A program made the position numbers and the translations under genes. The notes below the pieces were generated by a model. That model did no database searches, was not told where the DNA came from, and was given only the letters and a program-made list of their open reading frames with translations. A stretch of 64,000 bases of DNA from Candidatus Sumerlaeota bacterium. Its GTDB lineage: Bacteria > Sumerlaeota > Sumerlaeia > JAFGJS01. Positions 603 through 58,226 of this stretch are shown here, one piece after another; the stretch's first letter is position 1, and the number at the start of each line of letters is the position of its first letter. The DNA lies in NCBI GenBank assembly GCA_016928995.1, contig JAFGJS010000065.1, forward strand, positions 1 through 64,000. The letters run 5' to 3'.

Positions 603-2420
603 TCATGCATGCGGCGTGTAATGCGTATGCAGCAATTGGTGCGAGAGATGGCTGAGCGGTTTCTGCAAAAACGTATCATAAAGGGCCTGCACTTCATGAT
701 TCTCGTGGCTCATACGCACGGCGCACACCTCGCGGTCGTCGCGGTTGAGTCCATCAGCCCGTGAGCGCTTCGTGGCGATGTTCGTTGGAATCGGCTGACC
801 GCCGCCGCCAATGCATCCCCCTGGACAGGCCATGAACTCGATGAAGTGGTATTCCGCGAATTCGCCGCCCGCTCGCACCGACTCACAAACCTTGCGCGCG
901 TTCCCAAGACCATGCGCCACAGCCACCTTAACCGTCATGCCATTGACCGGCAAACTTGCGCGTTTGATGCCGTCGCTGGTTCCCAAATCATCGAATTCGA
1001 GCGGCGAAGGCGGCGCATTGGTGAGTAACGTGACCGCTGTACGCAACGCCGCCTCCATCACGCCGCCGGTGCGCCCGAAAATAGGCGCAGCCCCGGTATA
1101 AGCGCCGAGGATCGGATCCGCCTCCTCCTCGGGCATTTCATTCAGATTGATGTCTGCCATTTTAAGCAATCGCGACAATTCGCGCGTTGTGAGCACAAGA
1201 TCGACATCCTGATAGACGATCTGCGTGGAATCCTGCGGCTTTTCCGACTCGCGCCAGTATGCCGCTGCGTCGTTCATTTCCGGACGCATGGCCTCTGTTT
1301 TTTTGGCTGTGCAGGGCATGAACGAGATAACCCGCATCTTCTCCGGCTTCACTCCAAGCTTTTCCGCGCCCGCTGACTTGGCCACCGCGCCAAACATCTG
1401 CTGCGGACTTTTCGCCGAGGAGATGTGCGGCAGGAGCTCGGGAAAGAATGTCTCGGCGAAACGAACCCAACCGGGCGAGCACGACGTGAACATCGGCAAT
1501 GTGCCATTGTTGCTGATTCGCTCAATCAGCTCCGAACCTTCTTCCATGATTGTCAGATCAGCCGTGAAATTGGTGTCCCACACCTGCTTGAAACCCAACC
1601 GGCGCAGCGCGGCATAGAGTTTCTTCGTGACCAGTTCCCCATCGGGGATGCCGAACTCCTCGCCCAGCGAGGCGCGGACGGCTGGCGCGAATTGACATAC
1701 GCAGTAATGCTCATCGCGATGCAGCAATTCCCACGCCGTCGCGGTTTCATCCACTTCGCACATAGCTCCGAGCGGCCTAGCGAAGGCGCAATTACGGCAT
1801 CTCATGATTTCAGTCGCTGCGTTGAGTTTCCCGATGGCGCCCATGGGGCAATGATGGATGCATTGGCCGCAACGCACGCACCGGCTTTCATCCACGAGCA
1901 CGCCCAGTTCGTCATCCATGCTCAAGGCCTCAACGCCCTGAACGTCCCGGCAGGTCTCCACGCAAGCGCCGCAACGGATGCATCGGTTCGGATCATGCCG
2001 GATGGACGGCGCGGCGCCGCGCTCGGAAAACGAAAATTTCTCCCATTCCTCGATGGTGATCTGTCCGGCGTTTTCCCCCTCCACAGCTGTCAAATTCTGC
2101 CATTGACGGATGAAATGGCACTCATGATTTTCGATCAGCAGGCGCGCCCGTCCGGTGTGAAGGGCTTCGATCTCCGGAGTGCGCGTGGCGATGGATGTGT
2201 TTTCACGCACGGTGCGAGCCGCCAGCGCCGGCAAAGGAATCACCTGCCCGTCAACCTCGGCCAGGCCGAGCAGCGGACACATGGGATTGCGAATCCATTC
2301 TCTGGCAGAGCCAAGCGGCGGTTCAGAGAGCGACTCATTGGCTTGGCGGATGGCGTCGAGAAGCGTAGAGCCTTCAGGTATCTCAAGTTGCTTTTGGTTG
2401 ACGTGTACGCGTACAAGCAT
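603..2420 (-). CDS. hydA: [FeFe] hydrogenase catalytic subunit with atypical N-terminus and L1 motif
   Basis: 605 residues. It should reversibly reduce protons to H2 using ferredoxin- or NADH-derived electrons. Two [4Fe-4S] ferredoxin motifs are intact (C147/C150/C153/C157 and C181/C184/C187/C191). The H-domain has L2 MPCTAKKTE (C370) and L3 FMACPGGCIGGGGQP (C532, C536). Oddities: L1 reads TSCSPGW (312-318), with Ser315 where the TSCCP consensus has the second Cys. The N-terminal 130 residues keep the length of the usual [2Fe-2S] plus His-Cys3 region but hold only C48 and C101. An insert between the ferredoxins and the H-domain adds C208, C211 and C221. The start is ATG with GGAG 5 nt upstream. 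No HydEFG maturases or HydBC partners are in the window. Family certain; activity and subgroup uncertain. Confidence 0.93.
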   Translation of the reverse strand: MLVRVHVNQKQLEIPEGSTLLDAIRQANESLSEPPLGSAREWIRNPMCPLLGLAEVDGQVIPLPALAARTVRENTSIATRTPEIEALHTGRARLLIENHECHFIRQWQNLTAVEGENAGQITIEEWEKFSFSERGAAPSIRHDPNRCIRCGACVETCRDVQGVEALSMDDELGVLVDESRCVRCGQCIHHCPMGAIGKLNAATEIMRCRNCAFARPLGAMCEVDETATAWELLHRDEHYCVCQFAPAVRASLGEEFGIPDGELVTKKLYAALRRLGFKQVWDTNFTADLTIMEEGSELIERISNNGTLPMFTSCSPGWVRFAETFFPELLPHISSAKSPQQMFGAVAKSAGAEKLGVKPEKMRVISFMPCTAKKTEAMRPEMNDAAAYWRESEKPQDSTQIVYQDVDLVLTTRELSRLLKMADINLNEMPEEEADPILGAYTGAAPIFGRTGGVMEAALRTAVTLLTNAPPSPLEFDDLGTSDGIKRASLPVNGMTVKVAVAHGLGNARKVCESVRAGGEFAEYHFIEFMACPGGCIGGGGQPIPTNIATKRSRADGLNRDDREVCAVRMSHENHEVQALYDTFLQKPLSHLSHQLLHTHYTPHA

Positions 2421-3371: not shown

Positions 3372-3632
3372 ATGTCGAATCCTGAAAACGACGGCTATTC
3401 GCTGGCGTTTCGCCTGGCGCGGGAGAGCGAGCGCATCGTCGATCTGATCCTGCACTCGGAACTGGAATGGATCGACATCCAGTTCGAAATCGAGCGAATG
3501 CGCGAGCAGGTGCAGGAAGAAATGCCGGAGCGCGAAGGGGCGTTTGAGCGGATTTACGAGAGTCGTTTCATCCGATTGTGGCGGCAATGGCGCGCCTGCG
3601 CCGAAGTCTGGCGCCACGGCGAGTGGCGATAG
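3372..3632 (+). CDS. Small hypothetical charged helical protein
   Basis: 86 residues, not recognised. The sequence is rich in Glu, Arg and Trp and looks almost wholly alpha-helical (ESERIVDLILHSELEWIDIQ and following), ending in WRQWRACAEVWRHGEWR. There is no signal peptide or membrane segment, so it is likely cytoplasmic and could form a helical bundle or coiled coil. The start at 3372 was chosen for the AAGGA sequence 8 nt upstream; earlier in-frame ATGs give an unlikely Arg-rich extension. It is divergent from the PEBP gene. Confidence 0.6.
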   Translation: MSNPENDGYSLAFRLARESERIVDLILHSELEWIDIQFEIERMREQVQEEMPEREGAFERIYESRFIRLWRQWRACAEVWRHGEWR

Positions 3633-3741
3633 GCGACTGCATTCAATGGTGTTATAATCAAATCGAGCGCCGATCGAGGATCTAATTTTCGGTAATTGAC
3701 GGCACTGAATCGTCCTTAGAAAAATTTTTGGCTTTTTGCGG

Positions 3742-3770
3742 TTGACAATGTTCATGAACCTCCATATGCT
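3742..3770 (+). promoter_or_regulatory. Near-consensus sigma-70 promoter for a small secreted peptide
   Basis: TTGACA (3742-3747), exactly 17 bp, then TATGCT (3765-3770). The predicted transcript start is about 40 nt before the ATG at 3819. It is among the best promoter matches seen in the window. Confidence 0.75.
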
Positions 3771-3818
3771 ATTTAAGTTCTTCATCAACGATATTTTCCA
3801 GGATAGGAGCATTTCAAT

Positions 3819-3992
3819 ATGAAAAAATTCGTAGCAATTTTATCCGCAATGGCGTTGATGTTTGCTTTTGTGATGCAGGTTGGTTATGAAAAACCCGCTA
3901 ACGCTGATAAAGACGGCAAGCAGAACTTTGGAATCAGCGACAATCCAACACCGAGCCGGAACAATCCGGATGTTTGGACGCAGTACTATTAA
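3819..3992 (+). CDS. Tiny secreted peptide precursor (57 aa)
   Basis: Begins MKKFVAILSAMALMFAFVMQ, a classical signal peptide (KK, then a hydrophobic core), with a likely signal peptidase I site after PANA (residue 29). This would leave a 28-residue hydrophilic peptide ending NPDVWTQYY. AGGAG lies about 9 nt before the ATG, a near-consensus promoter sits upstream, and an intrinsic terminator follows about 100 nt after the stop, so this is a complete single-gene unit. No known family is recognised. Possible roles are a signalling peptide, a surface or envelope component, or an accessory to the polysaccharide operon that follows on the same strand. Existence is well supported; function is unknown. 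Confidence 0.75.
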   Translation: MKKFVAILSAMALMFAFVMQVGYEKPANADKDGKQNFGISDNPTPSRNNPDVWTQYY

Positions 3993-4089
3993 TTTCACTC
4001 GAATCCATTCCGCAAACAATGGATAATATTTGATGTGACTGCTTCGCATTGCGAAGAGATGAAATCAGAAAAATTTGTCATGTGTACGA

Positions 4090-4126
4090 AGTGGAGATTT
4101 TTTTATAAATTCTCCACTTTTTTATT
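4090..4126 (+). terminator. Intrinsic terminator after the small peptide gene
   Basis: A perfect 9-bp stem, AGTGGAGA at 4090-4097 with its complement at 4111-4118, encloses an AT-rich loop and is followed by TTTTTTATTT. It separates the peptide gene from the polysaccharide operon. Confidence 0.8.
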
Positions 4127-4267
4127 TGCGATGAAACCGCTGAACTGGCAGTTTGTTCAAGCAGGCGGTCTTATCAGGGCGCAGACTTCTTGTCCCTCTT
4201 CAGCGCGGGCGGCTTACGCTTCCCGTCAATTCGTATGACTCCGGTTCCAGGGGAGAGAAGGAAATCG

Positions 4268-7246
4268 ATGAATCGATCCATGCACTATGCCGCGTTGTGC
4301 CTGTGTTGTTTGCTTTCCATGCCGGGCATCGCTCAAAACGCTCAAGAAAATATTTCCAAGAGTTCAAAATTCTCGACGCTCCAGGAAACGGAAAGCATCG
4401 ACAAACGCGAACTTTTGACGCCGCCAGCGTTCAGCGCTTCCGAGACGATCGAGAAGCCGTACCGCCGCAATCAGCAAATCCTCTCATCCTTGCAGGAATT
4501 CAGCACGATTCAGAGCGCGCCGGTGAATCCTTACTACATCCTTGGCCCGCGGGATGAGATTGTCATCAATCTTTGGGGCAAAGTGGTGCGTTCCTTCACG
4601 CCGACGGTGGACGAGGATGGTTTCATCCGGCTCGATTTCGACGGATCGGAATTGCGCTTTTCCGTGAACGGCGTTTTCTATAAAGATTTAAAACAAACCA
4701 TTTTGCGCGAACTATCCAAGATTTCCAGCGATGTGGATATCGATCATCCCGCGACAAGCCCGATCAAAGTGGATGTTTCGCTGGGCAAAATTCGCGGCAT
4801 CAATGTCACGGTCTTGGGCGAGGTGAAGTCTCCCGGGCAATACACGCTTGATGCGACGGCCGGCTCGATCTTCAATGTGATCGCCACAGCGGGCGGATTG
4901 ACCAATAACGCCTCGTTGCGTCAAATCATCATTCGCCGCGCGGGAGGCCGGTCGGAATCGGTCGATCTGCAGGCTTTCGACCTGTACCATGTGCTGGAAA
5001 GCGGAGCGATCAACGAAACGCTGTTTCATTTGCAGGAAGGCGATATTCTGATTGTGCGTCCGCTGGGACCGGCGGTGACGATTGAAGGGGCGGTGAAACG
5101 CCCCGGGTTTTATGAAATCATCGACGGTGAAACGCTGAAAAACGTGGTGGAGTTCGCGCAGGATTTTGAGCCGGGCGCCAATCGCCAGAAAGTCCATGTT
5201 CTGCGGATCAACGTCGGCGGGCAAAATCAGTATCTGGACGTCGATTATGAGGCCGAAGCGGAATTCGCGCTGTTTGACGGCGATCGGATCCGCGTGGACC
5301 GCAGGCCCATGACGCGGCGCTACAATATCGTGGAACTCAGCGGCGGCGGCGTCCGGACGCCGGGCATTTACCAGTTCAAAGCGGGCATGACGCTGAAGGA
5401 CTTGATCCAGATCGGCGAAGGCTTTCATGAAGACGCCTACCTGGAAAGCGTGATGTTTGTGCGCACCAATGAAGACTTCACGATGGATTTTTCCACAATC
5501 GACCTGAGCCAGTTCGATTCCAACACGGAAATTCAGGGAACCTTGCTGCGTCCGTTGGATAAAATCATCGTCTTTTCCAGATTCCAGAAGGCCGGCGGTG
5601 AAAAATACGTGACAATCTCCGGTCATGTGAAGGAGCCGGGACAGTATGAACTGAGCTATAAAATGACGCTCTACGACCTGGTTTTCATCGCCGGAGGATT
5701 TACAGATCCGGATTATCTGGAGAAGACTTACCTGGATCGCGCGCTGCTGACTCGCGAGGAAGCAGGGCAGCAGATGGATATTTCCTTCCACCTCGGACGG
5801 TTGCTGGAGGGGAACGCGGCTGAAAATCACAAACTGCAAAGCAACGACCACGTGCGGATCTACTCCCGCGCCGAGATCGAGGGCAATAAAACGGTCCGGC
5901 TGAGCGGACATGTCAAAAAATCCGGTCAGTATCCCCTGAAGAAGGATATGCGGGTGAGCGACCTGCTGTTCCTGGGCGGCGGCTTTGAGGATCTGGAGTT
6001 CCGCAGCCAGACGTACCTGAAGCGCGCGGACATTATTCGCGTCGATCCGGAGACGCAGGAAAAGAGACGCATCCCCTTCAACCTGGAAGAAGCGCTCAAG
6101 GAAAATCCCGCAGAGAATCTCCTGCTGGAAAATCAGGATCAAGTGGCCGTGTATTCCTTCGTGCAATTCCAGGACAAGCAGCGAGTGAGCATCGAGGGTG
6201 AAGTGCGCGCGCCGGGCGAATACGAACTGACGCAGGACATGACACTGCAGGATTTGATCGCCCTGGCCAAAGGGCTGACGGAAAACGCGGATCCACAGTT
6301 GATCGAAGTGGCGCGCGCCGCAAGTCATTCGGACGATGGCGACAGCGATCAACTGGCGAACATCATGATGGCGGATCCGTCGCCGGAGTCTTTTTTCCTG
6401 CGCAATCAGGACATGGTCTTCGTGCGGCGGAAAAAAGACCGCATGGATAAAAGAATCGTCTCCATCGAAGGCGAAGTGGCTTATCCCGGCAAATACGCGC
6501 TGCTGACGCAGACGGAGCGTCTTTCCGATCTGGTTCGCCGGGCTGGAGGCCTGCGCGAAGGCGCGGCGCCCGAGGCGGCGCTGCTGTACAGACAACAGAT
6601 GCCTGCGGTTGATGAACTCATTCCGGCGTGGAAACAGCCGGAGCCGGAACCGGAGCGCAAGCCGCTGGAATTCGAGGTTGAGTTTAGCTCGCCGACGCTG
6701 AAAGTCGTCATCGCGCCGGAGGAGCAGGAGAAGATTGAACAACTCGAAGCGGAATCACAGGAATCCGGTCAGAAAGTTTCCATCAACCTGGCCCAGGCGC
6801 TGCGAGATCCTCAAGGCCGGGAGGATATGATCCTGCTCGACGGCGACCGGCTCGTGATTCCGAAGCAAAACTGGACGGTGCAGGTGACGGGAGCGGTGTT
6901 GCTTCCCGGCGCGATGCAACACAATCCAGGCAAGCCGCTGTCGCACTACATCGAGCTCGCGGGCGGGTATCTCCCGGAAGCCGATGAGGCGCGCACGGTC
7001 GTGATTCTGCCCAATGGCGAAGCCCGAAGGGCGAAATCTTTTTTCCGCTCCTTCGATCCGCCGGCAGGCAGCGTGATTTACGCGCCTTTCAAGAATGAAG
7101 TTTACAGACGTTCCGCGGATGGAACCGCCGCGCCGCTGGCGCAGATGAACGAAGCGACAAAACAGCAGGATTCGGCGTCCGGCGTTGAAAACGGCAATCG
7201 GCCGGAAGCGGATAATAATATGAAAATGAGAACGCTTGCTCCTTGA
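4268..7246 (+). CDS. Polysaccharide export protein with eight SLBB repeats (Wza-like)
   Basis: 992 residues, far longer than Wza (about 380). It has a signal peptide (residues 1-22, ending GIAQ) and a Poly_export domain at about 87-154 (NPYYILGPRDEIVINLWG). Eight SLBB-type units follow, each recognisable by a G-x-V-x-x-PG-x-Y core: VTVLGEVKSPGQY, VTIEGAVKRPGFY, VELSGGGVRTPGIY, VTISGHVKEPGQY, VRLSGHVKKSGQY, VSIEGEVRAPGEY, VSIEGEVAYPGKY and VQVTGAVLLPGAM. It probably forms or lines the periplasmic/outer-membrane channel for a surface polysaccharide. The start at 4268 has a GAGAAGG sequence upstream and exposes the signal peptide. It is the first gene of an overlapping operon with the Wzz-like and ligase/polymerase-like genes. 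No obvious C-terminal amphipathic helix for an outer-membrane pore is seen. Confidence 0.9.
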   Translation: MNRSMHYAALCLCCLLSMPGIAQNAQENISKSSKFSTLQETESIDKRELLTPPAFSASETIEKPYRRNQQILSSLQEFSTIQSAPVNPYYILGPRDEIVINLWGKVVRSFTPTVDEDGFIRLDFDGSELRFSVNGVFYKDLKQTILRELSKISSDVDIDHPATSPIKVDVSLGKIRGINVTVLGEVKSPGQYTLDATAGSIFNVIATAGGLTNNASLRQIIIRRAGGRSESVDLQAFDLYHVLESGAINETLFHLQEGDILIVRPLGPAVTIEGAVKRPGFYEIIDGETLKNVVEFAQDFEPGANRQKVHVLRINVGGQNQYLDVDYEAEAEFALFDGDRIRVDRRPMTRRYNIVELSGGGVRTPGIYQFKAGMTLKDLIQIGEGFHEDAYLESVMFVRTNEDFTMDFSTIDLSQFDSNTEIQGTLLRPLDKIIVFSRFQKAGGEKYVTISGHVKEPGQYELSYKMTLYDLVFIAGGFTDPDYLEKTYLDRALLTREEAGQQMDISFHLGRLLEGNAAENHKLQSNDHVRIYSRAEIEGNKTVRLSGHVKKSGQYPLKKDMRVSDLLFLGGGFEDLEFRSQTYLKRADIIRVDPETQEKRRIPFNLEEALKENPAENLLLENQDQVAVYSFVQFQDKQRVSIEGEVRAPGEYELTQDMTLQDLIALAKGLTENADPQLIEVARAASHSDDGDSDQLANIMMADPSPESFFLRNQDMVFVRRKKDRMDKRIVSIEGEVAYPGKYALLTQTERLSDLVRRAGGLREGAAPEAALLYRQQMPAVDELIPAWKQPEPEPERKPLEFEVEFSSPTLKVVIAPEEQEKIEQLEAESQESGQKVSINLAQALRDPQGREDMILLDGDRLVIPKQNWTVQVTGAVLLPGAMQHNPGKPLSHYIELAGGYLPEADEARTVVILPNGEARRAKSFFRSFDPPAGSVIYAPFKNEVYRRSADGTAAPLAQMNEATKQQDSASGVENGNRPEADNNMKMRTLAP

Positions 7247-8354: not shown

Positions 8355-10394
8355 ATGGGCGGCGCTTCAAACAGAGCGGCTGGCGGAACGGAATCACCCG
8401 GCGTTTCGACCGATTATCTGTTGTGGTTTGTCGTCAGCCTCACTGCGCTGGCCGGCATGACGCACATCATGTCGAGTTTCTATACGCCGAAAATTCTTTG
8501 GGCCGCCGCGAGCCTGGGGCTGGCGTTGATCTTTTTGGCGCCTCCGAATCAAGCCGCGAAGGGATTGACGCCTCTCGGCGTGATATGGACGGCGTTCGCA
8601 GGATGGGCCGCGTTTTCCCTGACATGGGCGCTGTCGCCATACGCCGGCTTTGAGCGCGTCGTCGTGCTGTTGCTGCTTACCGCCGCTTATCTCATCGCCC
8701 AACGAACGCGATTTTGGACGCACGATGCTTTCTGGCGGCTTTTTTGCGGCCTTTCCATCGTGATCAGCCTGGCGGGCTGCCTGCAATATTTACTGCACGA
8801 TCATCCTTTGATCCGCTGGATCCCCACGGCGGCCACTCCCTCTTCCACCATGGGGCAGCGAAACATCGCCGCGACGTATCTGATCGTCACTCTGCCCTTC
8901 ATCGCCTGGCATTATTTCAAGGCTCCGCCGCGCGCCGCCTGGCTTCCGTTATGCGCGCTATTCATCGGCATGCTCTTTCTGCTGTTCACCCGCTGCCGGG
9001 GCGCCTGGCTGGGCGCTGTGCTGGGTGCGTCGTTCGCCTTTTGGCATTCAGGCGCGCCGCAGACGAACGCGCTGAAAAAGAAATTCGCGCTGTTACTCGC
9101 GCCCGCGCTGCTGGCCATCCTGATCGGCTCGATCATTCCGCCCTCCGCGGCGTTCATCAACAGCAGCAAACGCACCGCGCTCGATGCGGTGGAATCCTCG
9201 GTTGCTATGATGGAGCATACTCGATTGCCCGGATGGATTCGCGGCATGCGCACGGAGCGCAAGCTTTTCCTCGGTTGCGGCCTGGGCAATTACCCGGTCG
9301 CGGCTTCGCCGTTGCTGGCGGAAGGCAAGGCGCTGGCGCTGGACGCCGATCTGCATAATGATTTTGTGCAAAGTTTCATTGAACTCGGCGTTCCGGGGCT
9401 TTTGCTCTATCTTGCGATTTATATCGCGTTGCTGTGGATGATTGCGCGCCGGCGGGGAAACGGCTTGTTGGCCGCGTCCGGCGCGGCGATCACCGGATTC
9501 ATTGTCGCGCAAAACTTCATGTACATGTCGCAGGACATCAGCAGCGGCGTTTGGATCGCGGGCGTCGCGGCCTTGATCGTGGTTGAAGCCGAAGCTAAAC
9601 CATTGCTCAAACGCACGATTCCCATCGGCGCGCTGAAAATCGGCCGCCTTGTGGCGACGGTTTTGCTGTTTCTGCTCGCCGTCATGGCCTGCCTGTCGAT
9701 TCGCGGCGACCGGCGATTTCGCTATGAGTCTTTCCAGAACCAGCCCGACATGGCCTATCTGGCGCGGAAAATCTGGCCCACAATGTGGATCGATTGCACG
9801 ATGCTGCATATCAACGCGCATATCTTCGCCAACATCGCGAACGATCTCGGCGATGCGGAAGCTACTGAGTTTTGGGCGGAACAAGCGTTGGCGCTGCATC
9901 CCCGCGATTCCGCCTCGATTGCGTTGCTGGCGGACGCCCAGGAACGGCAGGGCGAAATCGACAAGGCGATCGCCACGCTGGAAAAGGCCATGGATGCTTT
10001 TCATTATCATCCGTACCTGAAAATCACGAATCAGTTGGAACGGCTCTACAAGGAAAGGAATGAAACCGAAAACCTGGCGCGACTGAAATCCAAAATCCAG
10101 GAGTCTCGCGTCGGTGTTCCGCAAAATCCGACACCGGCCAATCGAGCGAACGATGTCCCGCTGGACATCCGCCTCGACTGGAGCGGCTGCAACGCCGCCG
10201 ATCATTATGAGCTCTATCTCTGGAAGACCGGCGAACTCAAACCAGTCTGGCCGTTGGCTCGTCCACGCGAGAGCCGCTTTGATCAAGAAGTTCCGCTTGA
10301 AAGCGGGACGATTTATTTCTGGCAAGTGACTGCGGTTGGTAAACTCCGTCGTGAGAACAGCGAAGTTTGGTATTTCAAAACGGAGCGGCGCTGA
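8355..10394 (+). CDS. O-antigen ligase/polymerase-like membrane protein with TPR and Fn3-like tail
   Basis: 679 residues. Roughly ten or more transmembrane helices occupy residues 1-445. The Wzy_C/WaaL-type periplasmic loop is recognisable (GCGLGNYP, then DLHNDFVQSFIELGVPGLLL). The C-terminal third is soluble: TPR-like helices at about 485-575 (AEQALALHPRDSASIALLAD), then a fibronectin-III-like beta domain at about 590-679 (LDIRLDWSGCNAADHYELYL). TPR tails occur in this family; the added Fn3-like domain is less usual and may bind glycan or protein partners. It starts 2 nt after the Wzz-like stop, so it is the third gene of the operon. Ligase versus polymerase cannot be decided. Its 3' end overlaps the convergent OPT-like gene by 20 bp. 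Confidence 0.87.
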   Translation: MGGASNRAAGGTESPGVSTDYLLWFVVSLTALAGMTHIMSSFYTPKILWAAASLGLALIFLAPPNQAAKGLTPLGVIWTAFAGWAAFSLTWALSPYAGFERVVVLLLLTAAYLIAQRTRFWTHDAFWRLFCGLSIVISLAGCLQYLLHDHPLIRWIPTAATPSSTMGQRNIAATYLIVTLPFIAWHYFKAPPRAAWLPLCALFIGMLFLLFTRCRGAWLGAVLGASFAFWHSGAPQTNALKKKFALLLAPALLAILIGSIIPPSAAFINSSKRTALDAVESSVAMMEHTRLPGWIRGMRTERKLFLGCGLGNYPVAASPLLAEGKALALDADLHNDFVQSFIELGVPGLLLYLAIYIALLWMIARRRGNGLLAASGAAITGFIVAQNFMYMSQDISSGVWIAGVAALIVVEAEAKPLLKRTIPIGALKIGRLVATVLLFLLAVMACLSIRGDRRFRYESFQNQPDMAYLARKIWPTMWIDCTMLHINAHIFANIANDLGDAEATEFWAEQALALHPRDSASIALLADAQERQGEIDKAIATLEKAMDAFHYHPYLKITNQLERLYKERNETENLARLKSKIQESRVGVPQNPTPANRANDVPLDIRLDWSGCNAADHYELYLWKTGELKPVWPLARPRESRFDQEVPLESGTIYFWQVTAVGKLRRENSEVWYFKTERR

Positions 10395-12453
10395 CGGCGC
10401 CGTGGATCAGTCGCAGGGCCATGACCAGCATGCTGACGAGTCCGGCGCCGGTGAAGTATCCCGCGGCGAGCGCCGGCGCGAGGCGCAGAAACCGCTCGCG
10501 TCCGAATTTGCGCTGGAAATAAAACCGGCTTAGCAGCGCGCCCGTAATCTCCAACAACATCGCATGCGGCAATTGTCCCATGCCACGAATCAAACCATAG
10601 ATCAACATCACAGGCAAACCGAACGCGCTGAGCAGCGCGTATAACGCGACCGTGCCGCTCAATCCGGCGAAGATGGTCTTGGGGTGAATCGCGCGCATGA
10701 ACTCGCTGTCGCGCACGCTGACTTCGGCGTCGCTCTGGCCGGGCGGCGTGAAGGTGCTGCTCATCAGCAGCGTTTGATTCTTCGCGGCGAGTTCCCAGTG
10801 TATCTGCGCGGCGGGATAGAGGTCGGACGGGATCGCATCCGACTTCCAGATGAAGGCCCAGAACATCAGCGAGAGAATGAACAGCACCGGCAACGCGACG
10901 AGATCGGTCTTGATCAGCGAGCGGAAATTGACGCCGGTCAGTTCGCAGACGCGGAAGGACTGCGCCATGCCGCCATAGTTTTCGATGGGCACGGGCGCGA
11001 GCCAGAGATCGAGTCCGCGAGCGCCGGAAAAGAGAAACGCCGCCTCGCGCACAAACGGAATTTCCGCCGTCTGGCCGGAGAGCCCGAGCAGCCGCGCGTT
11101 GACGTACGAAATGAACGGGCTGTAAATGAACGCGAAGAAAATCAAAAAGAACAGAATCGCGGCGCTGCGGGGCAGCAGCAGCCAGCAGACGAAAACCGTG
11201 GCGCCTGCGGCGGCGGCGTACAGCCCCAGCGCGAGCCAGAGCGAGTAATCGCCGCGACCGGTGTTGGGCGTGATCCACAGGCCTTCGAGTCCGGCGCGGC
11301 CCTGGCCCTGACGGCGCAGCTCGCGCCAGCGCGAAAGCACGTCGCGCGCCGTGGCCCAGCAGCACACCAGCGAGATGCCCAGCCCGGCGCCGATGCCAAA
11401 AGAAAGCCAGAAATCGACGCTATTGGCGAACGCGGTGTTCACCGTATCCATGCCCGGCTGCCAGTGCGGCATCACGCCGAAATGCTGCAACGTGGGATTG
11501 AGGATCATGGTCAACGCGATGGCGAGGAACGTGCCGATCACCGCCCAAAAGGGAATGATGAAGCCGATGAACACGATGCCCGGATCAATGGCGAGGCCGG
11601 TGGGCGTGGCGGGCAGGATCGACTCGGTGAGCTGCGTGGCGTCCACGAACGGCTGCGCGATGGGATACACCGGATGAGCGAAGAAAATTCCCGTGAGTCC
11701 TGGCACGCCGATGGAAAAGACGCTGAAGGCCAGACCGATCATGGCGCCGAGCGAGAAGATGCGCCAGCGCAGTTTCGATTCGTTCGATGCGGCGGAAGAC
11801 GGTTTTGTTGCATCGCGCTCATCTGGCTCCTCCGGCTCGCTCAGCGCCAGCGCGCCCTGGGCCTGGATCGGCGCAAGCGGAAAGGGCAGGTTTTCGATGT
11901 CGGAAGTCAGCCGGAAGAAAAAGTAGCCCAGCGTGTAGCGCTTGATCAGACCGATGACCATCAAAAATGCGACGAGCAGAATCGGCACGCGCCAATCGGG
12001 ATGCAGCAGGTTGCGCTCAAGGATCGCCGCGCTGTCCGGCGCTGGCGCGAACCAGGACGGGAAGGATTCGGACATGCCCGCGTCGCGCGCCGCTTCGCTG
12101 CCGGCCAGGTACGCGCGATAAACCAGCCAGCCCAGCGGTCCGCCGGGCACGAGCATCGACGCGGCCATCATTACGTGCGTGGCGTGAAGCAGCACAACGA
12201 GCTGCTCGCGCTTCAGCGGCCGGAGCGAGCGCCGCGCCAGTTCCATGAACAGCGCGACCGTGACCCATGCCGCCGCCGTGCCGAGGCTGCCGCCGGTCAT
12301 CAGGCCAAGATAGATCGCGCCGGGCATCATCACGATGCCGCAGAAAAAAATGCCTGCGACCGTGGTCCAGCCAAAGCCGTCGCGATATTCGCCGGAAGGC
12401 ATCATCAGCGAACGGTACAGTTCGATTTCACGGTCTTTGCGTTCGAGGCTCAT
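10375..12453 (-). CDS. OPT-superfamily-like polytopic transporter
   Basis: 692 residues with about 14 hydrophobic helices. It resembles oligopeptide-transporter (OPT/YSL) relatives and DUF6785-like proteins in its N-terminal helix pairs (GIVMMPGAIYLGLMTGG), its long cytoplasmic Glu/Asp-rich loop at about 225-245, and its multiple Gly/Pro-rich helices. The substrate is unknown; peptides or metal chelates would fit OPT. The start at 12453 (MSLERKD) avoids an N-terminal extension encoded by a short repeat. No strong Shine-Dalgarno site is seen. It is the last gene of a minus-strand set with the giant FtsX protein and a second OPT-related protein. The family call rests on overall pattern rather than a diagnostic motif. 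Confidence 0.6.
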   Translation of the reverse strand: MSLERKDREIELYRSLMMPSGEYRDGFGWTTVAGIFFCGIVMMPGAIYLGLMTGGSLGTAAAWVTVALFMELARRSLRPLKREQLVVLLHATHVMMAASMLVPGGPLGWLVYRAYLAGSEAARDAGMSESFPSWFAPAPDSAAILERNLLHPDWRVPILLVAFLMVIGLIKRYTLGYFFFRLTSDIENLPFPLAPIQAQGALALSEPEEPDERDATKPSSAASNESKLRWRIFSLGAMIGLAFSVFSIGVPGLTGIFFAHPVYPIAQPFVDATQLTESILPATPTGLAIDPGIVFIGFIIPFWAVIGTFLAIALTMILNPTLQHFGVMPHWQPGMDTVNTAFANSVDFWLSFGIGAGLGISLVCCWATARDVLSRWRELRRQGQGRAGLEGLWITPNTGRGDYSLWLALGLYAAAAGATVFVCWLLLPRSAAILFFLIFFAFIYSPFISYVNARLLGLSGQTAEIPFVREAAFLFSGARGLDLWLAPVPIENYGGMAQSFRVCELTGVNFRSLIKTDLVALPVLFILSLMFWAFIWKSDAIPSDLYPAAQIHWELAAKNQTLLMSSTFTPPGQSDAEVSVRDSEFMRAIHPKTIFAGLSGTVALYALLSAFGLPVMLIYGLIRGMGQLPHAMLLEITGALLSRFYFQRKFGRERFLRLAPALAAGYFTGAGLVSMLVMALRLIHGAVSAAPF

Positions 12454-12469
12454 GGGATGAAAAACTCTA

Positions 12470-12515
12470 AATCCGAAATTCGAAATCCGAAACAAACACT
12501 AAATTCAAAAATCAA
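12470..12515. repeat. ATCCGAAAT low-complexity intergenic repeat
   Basis: Tandem-like units of ATCCGAAATTCGAAATCCGAAAC followed by AAATTCAAAAATCAAAG. Shadow translations give NSKSEIRNPK-type peptides. It lies just upstream of the OPT-like gene. Confidence 0.6.
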
Positions 12516-57344: not shown

Positions 57345-58226
57345 ATGTTCGACTCATTTGATTTCGAGGCATTAAACGATCCTGAGTTTAAAGAAGACTC
57401 GGTACGAGAAGAGCTTTTGGTACCCATCATCCAAGGTCTTGGGTATAAGGTGACTGGTGATAGCAGGGTTGTAAGAAGCCGGAATCTCATTCACCCGTAT
57501 GTGGCATTAGGTTCACAGCAACGAAAAGTCTCAATCGTTCCCGATTACCTATTTCTATCACAGGGCAAGCCTTTTTGGGTGCTCGATGCAAAAGCGCCTA
57601 CTGAGGACATTCTAAAAAGCAAGCACGTAGAGCAAGCCTACAGCTACGCGATCCATCCAGAAGTTCGCGCTGATCTGTTTGCGCTGTGCAACGGGCACCG
57701 CTTCGTCCTCTTTTCTACTCGCCAATTTGAACCGTTATTAGATTTCGAGTTGAAGGAGATAGATGCGTGCTGGGAGAAGCTGATCCGAGTTCTGCATCCC
57801 GATGTGATGGCACATCCGGAATCAATCCAATATCAACCAGACTATGGGTTGCACCTGAAGCGGCTTGGTGCAGAGCCAGGATTCCGACTGATCCTTCATG
57901 CTGTCAATTCGAACTTCATCTGCAAAGTCCGGGATGGGTTATACACTGCATCAACTGTAATCCCAGCTGAAGATGATTTCGCTACGTCGCTAGATTTCGG
58001 TGACAAGCAGCTTAAGCAACTGTTTACCGTATTGCCATCCGATCAGGTCCAATTGTTGAGACAAGGCCTCACGTCTCAGCCCTACATGGTTCACCTCGAT
58101 GATTCGGACTTTCAATTTGGTGCTGTGGCCGATCTGACAAAAGAAGTCATACACAACGCGGAAGAATCATATATTCCATTTCAGGTTCAGGAATTCATAA
58201 AATATATTGAATTCTGTGAAGAATGA
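57345..58226 (+). CDS. Orphan HsdR N-terminal-like nuclease protein, probably 5'-truncated
   Basis: 293 residues. Resembles the N-terminal nuclease domain of type I restriction HsdR (HSDR_N) without helicase: VREELLVPIIQGLGY (E22), VPDYLF (D67), LDAKAP (D81, K83) and VEQAYSYA (Q97, Y101) make a complete PD-(D/E)xK plus QxxxY set. The C-terminal half is unrecognised. More AT-rich than its neighbours. The frame stays open upstream to about 57236 with protein-like sequence (REELLDLINEHRVFDETPEN) but no start codon, and the ATG at 57345 has no ribosome site, suggesting lost 5' coding DNA or an unusual start. No HsdM/HsdS is near. Likely a defence-system remnant or stand-alone nuclease. Confidence 0.72.
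   Translation: MFDSFDFEALNDPEFKEDSVREELLVPIIQGLGYKVTGDSRVVRSRNLIHPYVALGSQQRKVSIVPDYLFLSQGKPFWVLDAKAPTEDILKSKHVEQAYSYAIHPEVRADLFALCNGHRFVLFSTRQFEPLLDFELKEIDACWEKLIRVLHPDVMAHPESIQYQPDYGLHLKRLGAEPGFRLILHAVNSNFICKVRDGLYTASTVIPAEDDFATSLDFGDKQLKQLFTVLPSDQVQLLRQGLTSQPYMVHLDDSDFQFGAVADLTKEVIHNAEESYIPFQVQEFIKYIEFCEE

Follow-up and report, generated by a model that had tools for sequence, protein, structure and literature searches.

A probable lineage-restricted gene for a small Sec-exported peptide near polysaccharide genes of a Candidatus Sumerlaeota bacterium

We suggest that positions 3742-4126 of the window, as we call the whole 64,000-nucleotide stretch of DNA analysed here, hold an independent, monocistronic and lineage-restricted gene for a small peptide exported by Sec. 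Taken as a whole, this reading is the one that we hold with moderate confidence. The unit is complete in its DNA anatomy, exceeds chance expectation and has no detectable relatives in the collections searched.

Anatomy of the unit and the predicted peptide

The promoter, AGGAG, 57-codon ORF, signal peptide and terminator described in the first-pass annotation are all present, and their coordinates and description are correct. The parts are given below, with the evidence for each in brackets.

3742..3770, + strand: sigma-70-type promoter TTGACA-N17-TATGCT, with TTGACA at 3742-3747, a 17-nt spacer and TATGCT at 3765-3770, 10/12 consensus (sequence; genome-wide strict-pattern count)
3806..3810, + strand: Shine-Dalgarno (SD) sequence AGGAG, 8 nt 5' of the ATG (sequence)
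3819..3992, + strand: 57-codon ORF for a small, predicted exported peptide, with ATG at 3819 and stop at 3990-3992 (translation, best of six frames, shuffles, 464-kb scan)
3819..3905, + strand: signal peptide, residues 1-29, with the end PANA (AxA) (sequence; heuristic signal-peptide test)
3906..3989, + strand: predicted mature 28-mer DKDGKQNFGISDNPTPSRNNPDVWTQYY (sequence; predicted cleavage)
4042..4056, + strand: small hairpin CTTCGC-ATT-GCGAAG in the 3' untranslated region (single copy in the window)
4088..4126, + strand: intrinsic terminator, a 10-bp stem and then a T-rich tail (sequence; folding -14.1 kcal/mol)

The full peptide reads MKKFVAILSAMALMFAFVMQVGYEKPANA / DKDGKQNFGISDNPTPSRNNPDVWTQYY, where the slash marks the putative signal peptidase I site. 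The heuristic finds in MKKFVAILSAMALMFAFVMQVGYEKPANA the positive n-region, the hydrophobic h-region and the AxA site of a Sec signal peptide, and there is no lipobox, the 57 residues being free of cysteine. Both the PANA motif, which ends at residue 29, and the hydrophilic 28-mer ending in WTQYY can be read in the sequence as first described, with cleavage between them predicted. Given a long h-region and a c-region with E and K, an uncleaved membrane anchor is possible instead of a cleaved signal peptide.

The product had also been called secreted. Sec export is supported by the sequence; however, "secreted" is too strong a word for a cell with a presumed outer membrane. The neighbouring Wza-type SLBB/Poly_export gene suggests such a membrane, so that Sec export would reach the periplasm, which is probably the destination of the peptide.

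The terminator consists of a stem-loop at about 4088-4120 and a T run to about 4126. Its stem pairs with a probability of 0.88-1.0 in the fold ensemble of the leader, and no strong competing structure is found there.

Chance, codon usage and relatives

The 57-codon unit exceeds chance expectation. In 3000 dinucleotide shuffles of positions 3640-4190 (551 bases), judged by criteria fixed after the unit had been seen, an SD-led ORF of at least 50 aa arose in 334 and one with a signal peptide in 4, while the combination of SD, signal-peptide ORF, promoter and terminator did not arise (0/3000). The window itself contains 70 SD-led ORFs of 40-100 aa; four have a signal-peptide-like start, and a single one, the 57-codon ORF, has a promoter and a terminator as well. 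It is also the sole intergenic ORF of 30-100 aa with an SD sequence and a signal peptide in the 464 kb sampled, which comprise the window and a further sample of 400 kb and make up about 10% of the genome.

Promoter counts depend on the strictness of the pattern. A simple scan over 20 kb found 7 promoters vs 6.8 in shuffles, which is no excess. The same consensus scan did not list the terminator at 4088-4126, probably because the loop enclosed by its uninterrupted stem is longer than the scan allows. The strict pattern TTGACA-N16-18-TATNNT has 45 matches (43 distinct sites) in the whole genome, vs 9 for the reversed control, and several of the strict sites examined stand 5' of ordinary genes. 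No tiny secreted unit is seen at the 42 other distinct sites among the ORFs listed there (at most the two longest per site; up to four for the first 30 loci).

In a codon model based on 21 window genes the annotated frame scores -0.3 bits; the two others on the plus strand score -51.4 and -51.1, and the three on the minus strand -20.5, -47.9 and -33.3. As the highest of the six it is therefore the most coding-like, yet in absolute terms it is not above local base composition.

Codon usage gives no support to the high expression that had been proposed. The CAI of the ORF, 0.53, is lower than that of 20/21 window genes in the model (0.60-0.80), with one gene below it (0.47). It is marginally above the synonymous null: recodings at local base composition have a mean CAI of 0.47, and 7.5% of 2000 reach 0.53. 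Hence, one would not take the ORF for a gene with a long history of selection for high expression in its host. The gap that holds it is AT-rich, with a GC content of about 0.40-0.42 vs 0.58 for the window, and the low CAI is consistent with a gene there that is young or was acquired. Of the 21 genes scored, the one with the lowest codon adaptation (0.47) is a 293-aa ORF at window 57345-58226 (+), which is possibly acquired.

The own genome carries one copy of the peptide and no paralogue. At E 0.01, 0/39 other genomes of the phylum have a match. A search of 60 relatives at E 1 gave 10 weak matches in 9 of them, all with E 0.12 or more; these, most of them located within larger frames, were dropped. 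Weak plasmid matches in Phaeobacter (E 0.5) are not homologues, nor is a Spirochaetales locus (L013), where the match covers only a signal peptide, that of an unrelated lipoprotein. No relative was found in phages or viral contigs, and Pfam, NCBIfam, PHROGs and the PDB have no match to the 57-residue peptide. Homologues with the same frame elsewhere, as a conserved small-protein family would have, are thus absent from the collections searched. The first-pass annotation had named the lack of frame conservation in relatives, together with the lack of a transcript, as evidence against its reading; the first half of this is what the 39 genomes give, though all of them are related at class level or beyond, which makes for a weak test. 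Among the relatives listed, even the nearest belong to the same class but not to the same genus, family or order, so that a fast-evolving small gene could easily escape a search of limited sensitivity. According to one smORF catalogue paper, 84.7% of predicted smORFs are singletons, which it describes as enriched in artefacts (PMC11364881).

The ORF might then be a chance one or the decayed end of a longer gene for an exported protein, the functional product, if any, being RNA. We consider this unlikely. It would be in line with the orphan status and the low codon adaptation, with the 95 nt from stop codon to terminator and with the folding of the 3' untranslated part, which is stronger than in its own shuffles (z -2.89), probably mostly due to the terminator. 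However, no Rfam match is found anywhere in the window, an SD sequence with an in-frame signal-peptide ORF is as rare as the shuffles show, and promoter, SD sequence and terminator are each intact and at the right distances.

Polysaccharide genes and likeness to known systems

The SLBB/Poly_export gene lies on the same strand, with its ATG at 4268, about 140 nt past the terminator. On its 3' side follow a protein weakly like XrtA-type chain-length determinants and then a Wzy_C protein with TPR. Two other genes near the unit are an 86-aa ORF just upstream on the same strand (window 3372-3632 (+), MSNPENDGYSLAFRLARES...), with no Pfam/NCBIfam match, and an [FeFe] hydrogenase with ferredoxin domains (window 603-2420 (-)). 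A 706-aa membrane-protein-like ORF (window 10375-12495 (-)), convergent with the Wzy_C gene, likewise has no Pfam/NCBIfam match at the thresholds used.

This arrangement raises the question of a leader: transcription from 3742 would in certain conditions read through the terminator, and the small ORF would control the SLBB, chain-length and Wzy genes by attenuation or by arrest of the SecM kind. The common strand and the short distance agree with it, and an exported leader is the form taken by export monitors. Between the terminator and 4268 the best promoter-like site has 8/12 and none reaches 9, which leaves some room for read-through. However, the terminator stem, with its high pairing probability, faces no competing antiterminator, and the own genome (G000, 92% complete) has one PF02357 match and no NusG paralogue. 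Processive antitermination via such a paralogue is therefore unlikely, and attenuation of the operon is unsupported. RfaH/LoaP-type antitermination leaders differ in the same respect, as the NusG paralogue of these systems is not found in this genome.

SecM-type leaders share with the window ORF a small frame with an export signal 5' of another gene. The window ORF differs from them by having no recognised arrest motif, by the strong terminator before the next gene and by the lack of a competing structure. By eye its C-terminus is unlike the SecM arrest sequence FSTPVWISQAQGIRAGP (PMC10192921); a new arrest motif is possible. The SLBB protein is matched in 5/38 other genomes of the class. In the four with readable DNA, the gap just 5' of the homologue has no small ORF with an SD sequence and a hydrophobic start on the strand of the gene; in the fifth (G018) the gene starts at the contig end, outside this upstream comparison. 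The small ORF is therefore not a fixed companion of the operon. Altogether, the tie to the polysaccharide operon drawn in the first-pass annotation is unsupported, given the intervening terminator, the four relatives and the one NusG, and we regard control of the operon by such a leader as improbable.

A perfect palindrome in the promoter spacer, GTTCATGAAC (window 3750-3759), was considered as an operator of a regulon. It occurs at 10 places genome-wide vs 0 for the control, and was rejected because most of the other copies lie inside long ORFs.

Type I toxin-antitoxin systems offer a different view of the hydrophobic N-terminus, which would be the uncleaved membrane segment of a small toxin. 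TimP and other type I toxins are encoded by small hydrophobic ORFs that form units of their own, and the length, the long hydrophobic stretch and the single-gene unit seen here are compatible with that; TimP provides a precedent, its target being the cytoplasmic membrane (PMC7667032). The window ORF differs from them by its AxA cleavage site and its 28-residue hydrophilic tail, and no promoter-like site for an antisense RNA was found over the ORF or the leader: the sole minus-strand 9-of-12 site (3817-3788) points away from the message. The absence of a paralogue in the own genome also speaks against a toxin, which we judge to be very improbable. A trans-acting sRNA repressor of such a toxin is possible.

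The precursors of Phr/RRNPP signalling peptides are likewise short and Sec-exported and may have a C-terminal active segment. However, no RRNPP-type (TPR) receptor stands among the adjacent genes scanned, namely those for the hydrogenase, PEBP, the 86-aa ORF and the SLBB, chain-length and Wzy_C proteins; the Wzy_C protein has its TPR joined to a ligase-like membrane domain. Phr/RRNPP systems are described for Bacillota/Gram-positives. An export-sensing leader or a signalling peptide of an undescribed type, which would tune the adjacent polysaccharide-export operon via the lineage-specific PDVWTQYY, has hardly any probability in our view.

The C-terminus was also considered as a sorting tag. 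WTQYY-stop ends a propeller-like ORF of 381 aa (L072:373-1518, G018:C185) in G018, whose SLBB match is the best among the relatives. This ORF has a weak Lactonase match below the cut-off; the sequence just after its stop is repeated in that genome, while the tag itself is single. WRQYY-stop ends a 505-residue open frame in G017 (L099, G017:C46:11408-11425) that is repeat-rich and, by eye, beta-helix-like. A looser C-terminal pattern gave 6 matches, 3 with a true stop and 3 ending in TGG. WxQYY-stop is found once in the own genome and 3 times in 40 genomes, vs 9 times for the reversed control, and 0/30 larger exported proteins of the own genome (464 kb) end in two aromatics. With fewer matches than the control and none among these 30 proteins, a PEP-CTERM-like tag was rejected. 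We take the shared W(T/R)QYY ends as coincidence, which does not fully explain them, as all three stand in frame on long or exported-looking ORFs.

In form the unit resembles orphan or lineage-restricted exported smORFs, with which it shares a length of <100 codons, an intergenic and AT-rich position, a signal peptide or membrane segment and no assigned function. Large catalogues of small intergenic ORFs exist (PMC11364881, PMC11188072). The catalogue families are conserved across many sequences, whereas the window peptide has no second member in the collections searched.

Proposed course of expression and its meaning

We suggest the following course for the favoured reading, an independent gene for an exported peptide.

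Step 1: RNA polymerase carrying a sigma factor of the housekeeping type would start at about 3777 and end at about 4126. From this message the ribosome would yield a pre-peptide of 57 residues.

Step 2: The N-terminus, with its KK and the hydrophobic stretch, would direct the pre-peptide to Sec, and signal peptidase I would cut after ANA (residue 29).

Step 3: A hydrophilic, cysteine-free and probably unstructured peptide of 28 residues would be released, most likely into the periplasm. There it would bind an envelope component, a role that we guess from location and composition.

If expressed, the peptide would add to the exported microproteins restricted to one taxon, and its lineage has no close relatives in the collection. 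Orphan exported microproteins are a class often missed by gene callers, and the expression signals are unusually clear here. The unit by itself opens no new mechanism. What it offers is a clean case for testing whether translation and export truly take place for orphan intergenic smORFs that carry full expression signals.
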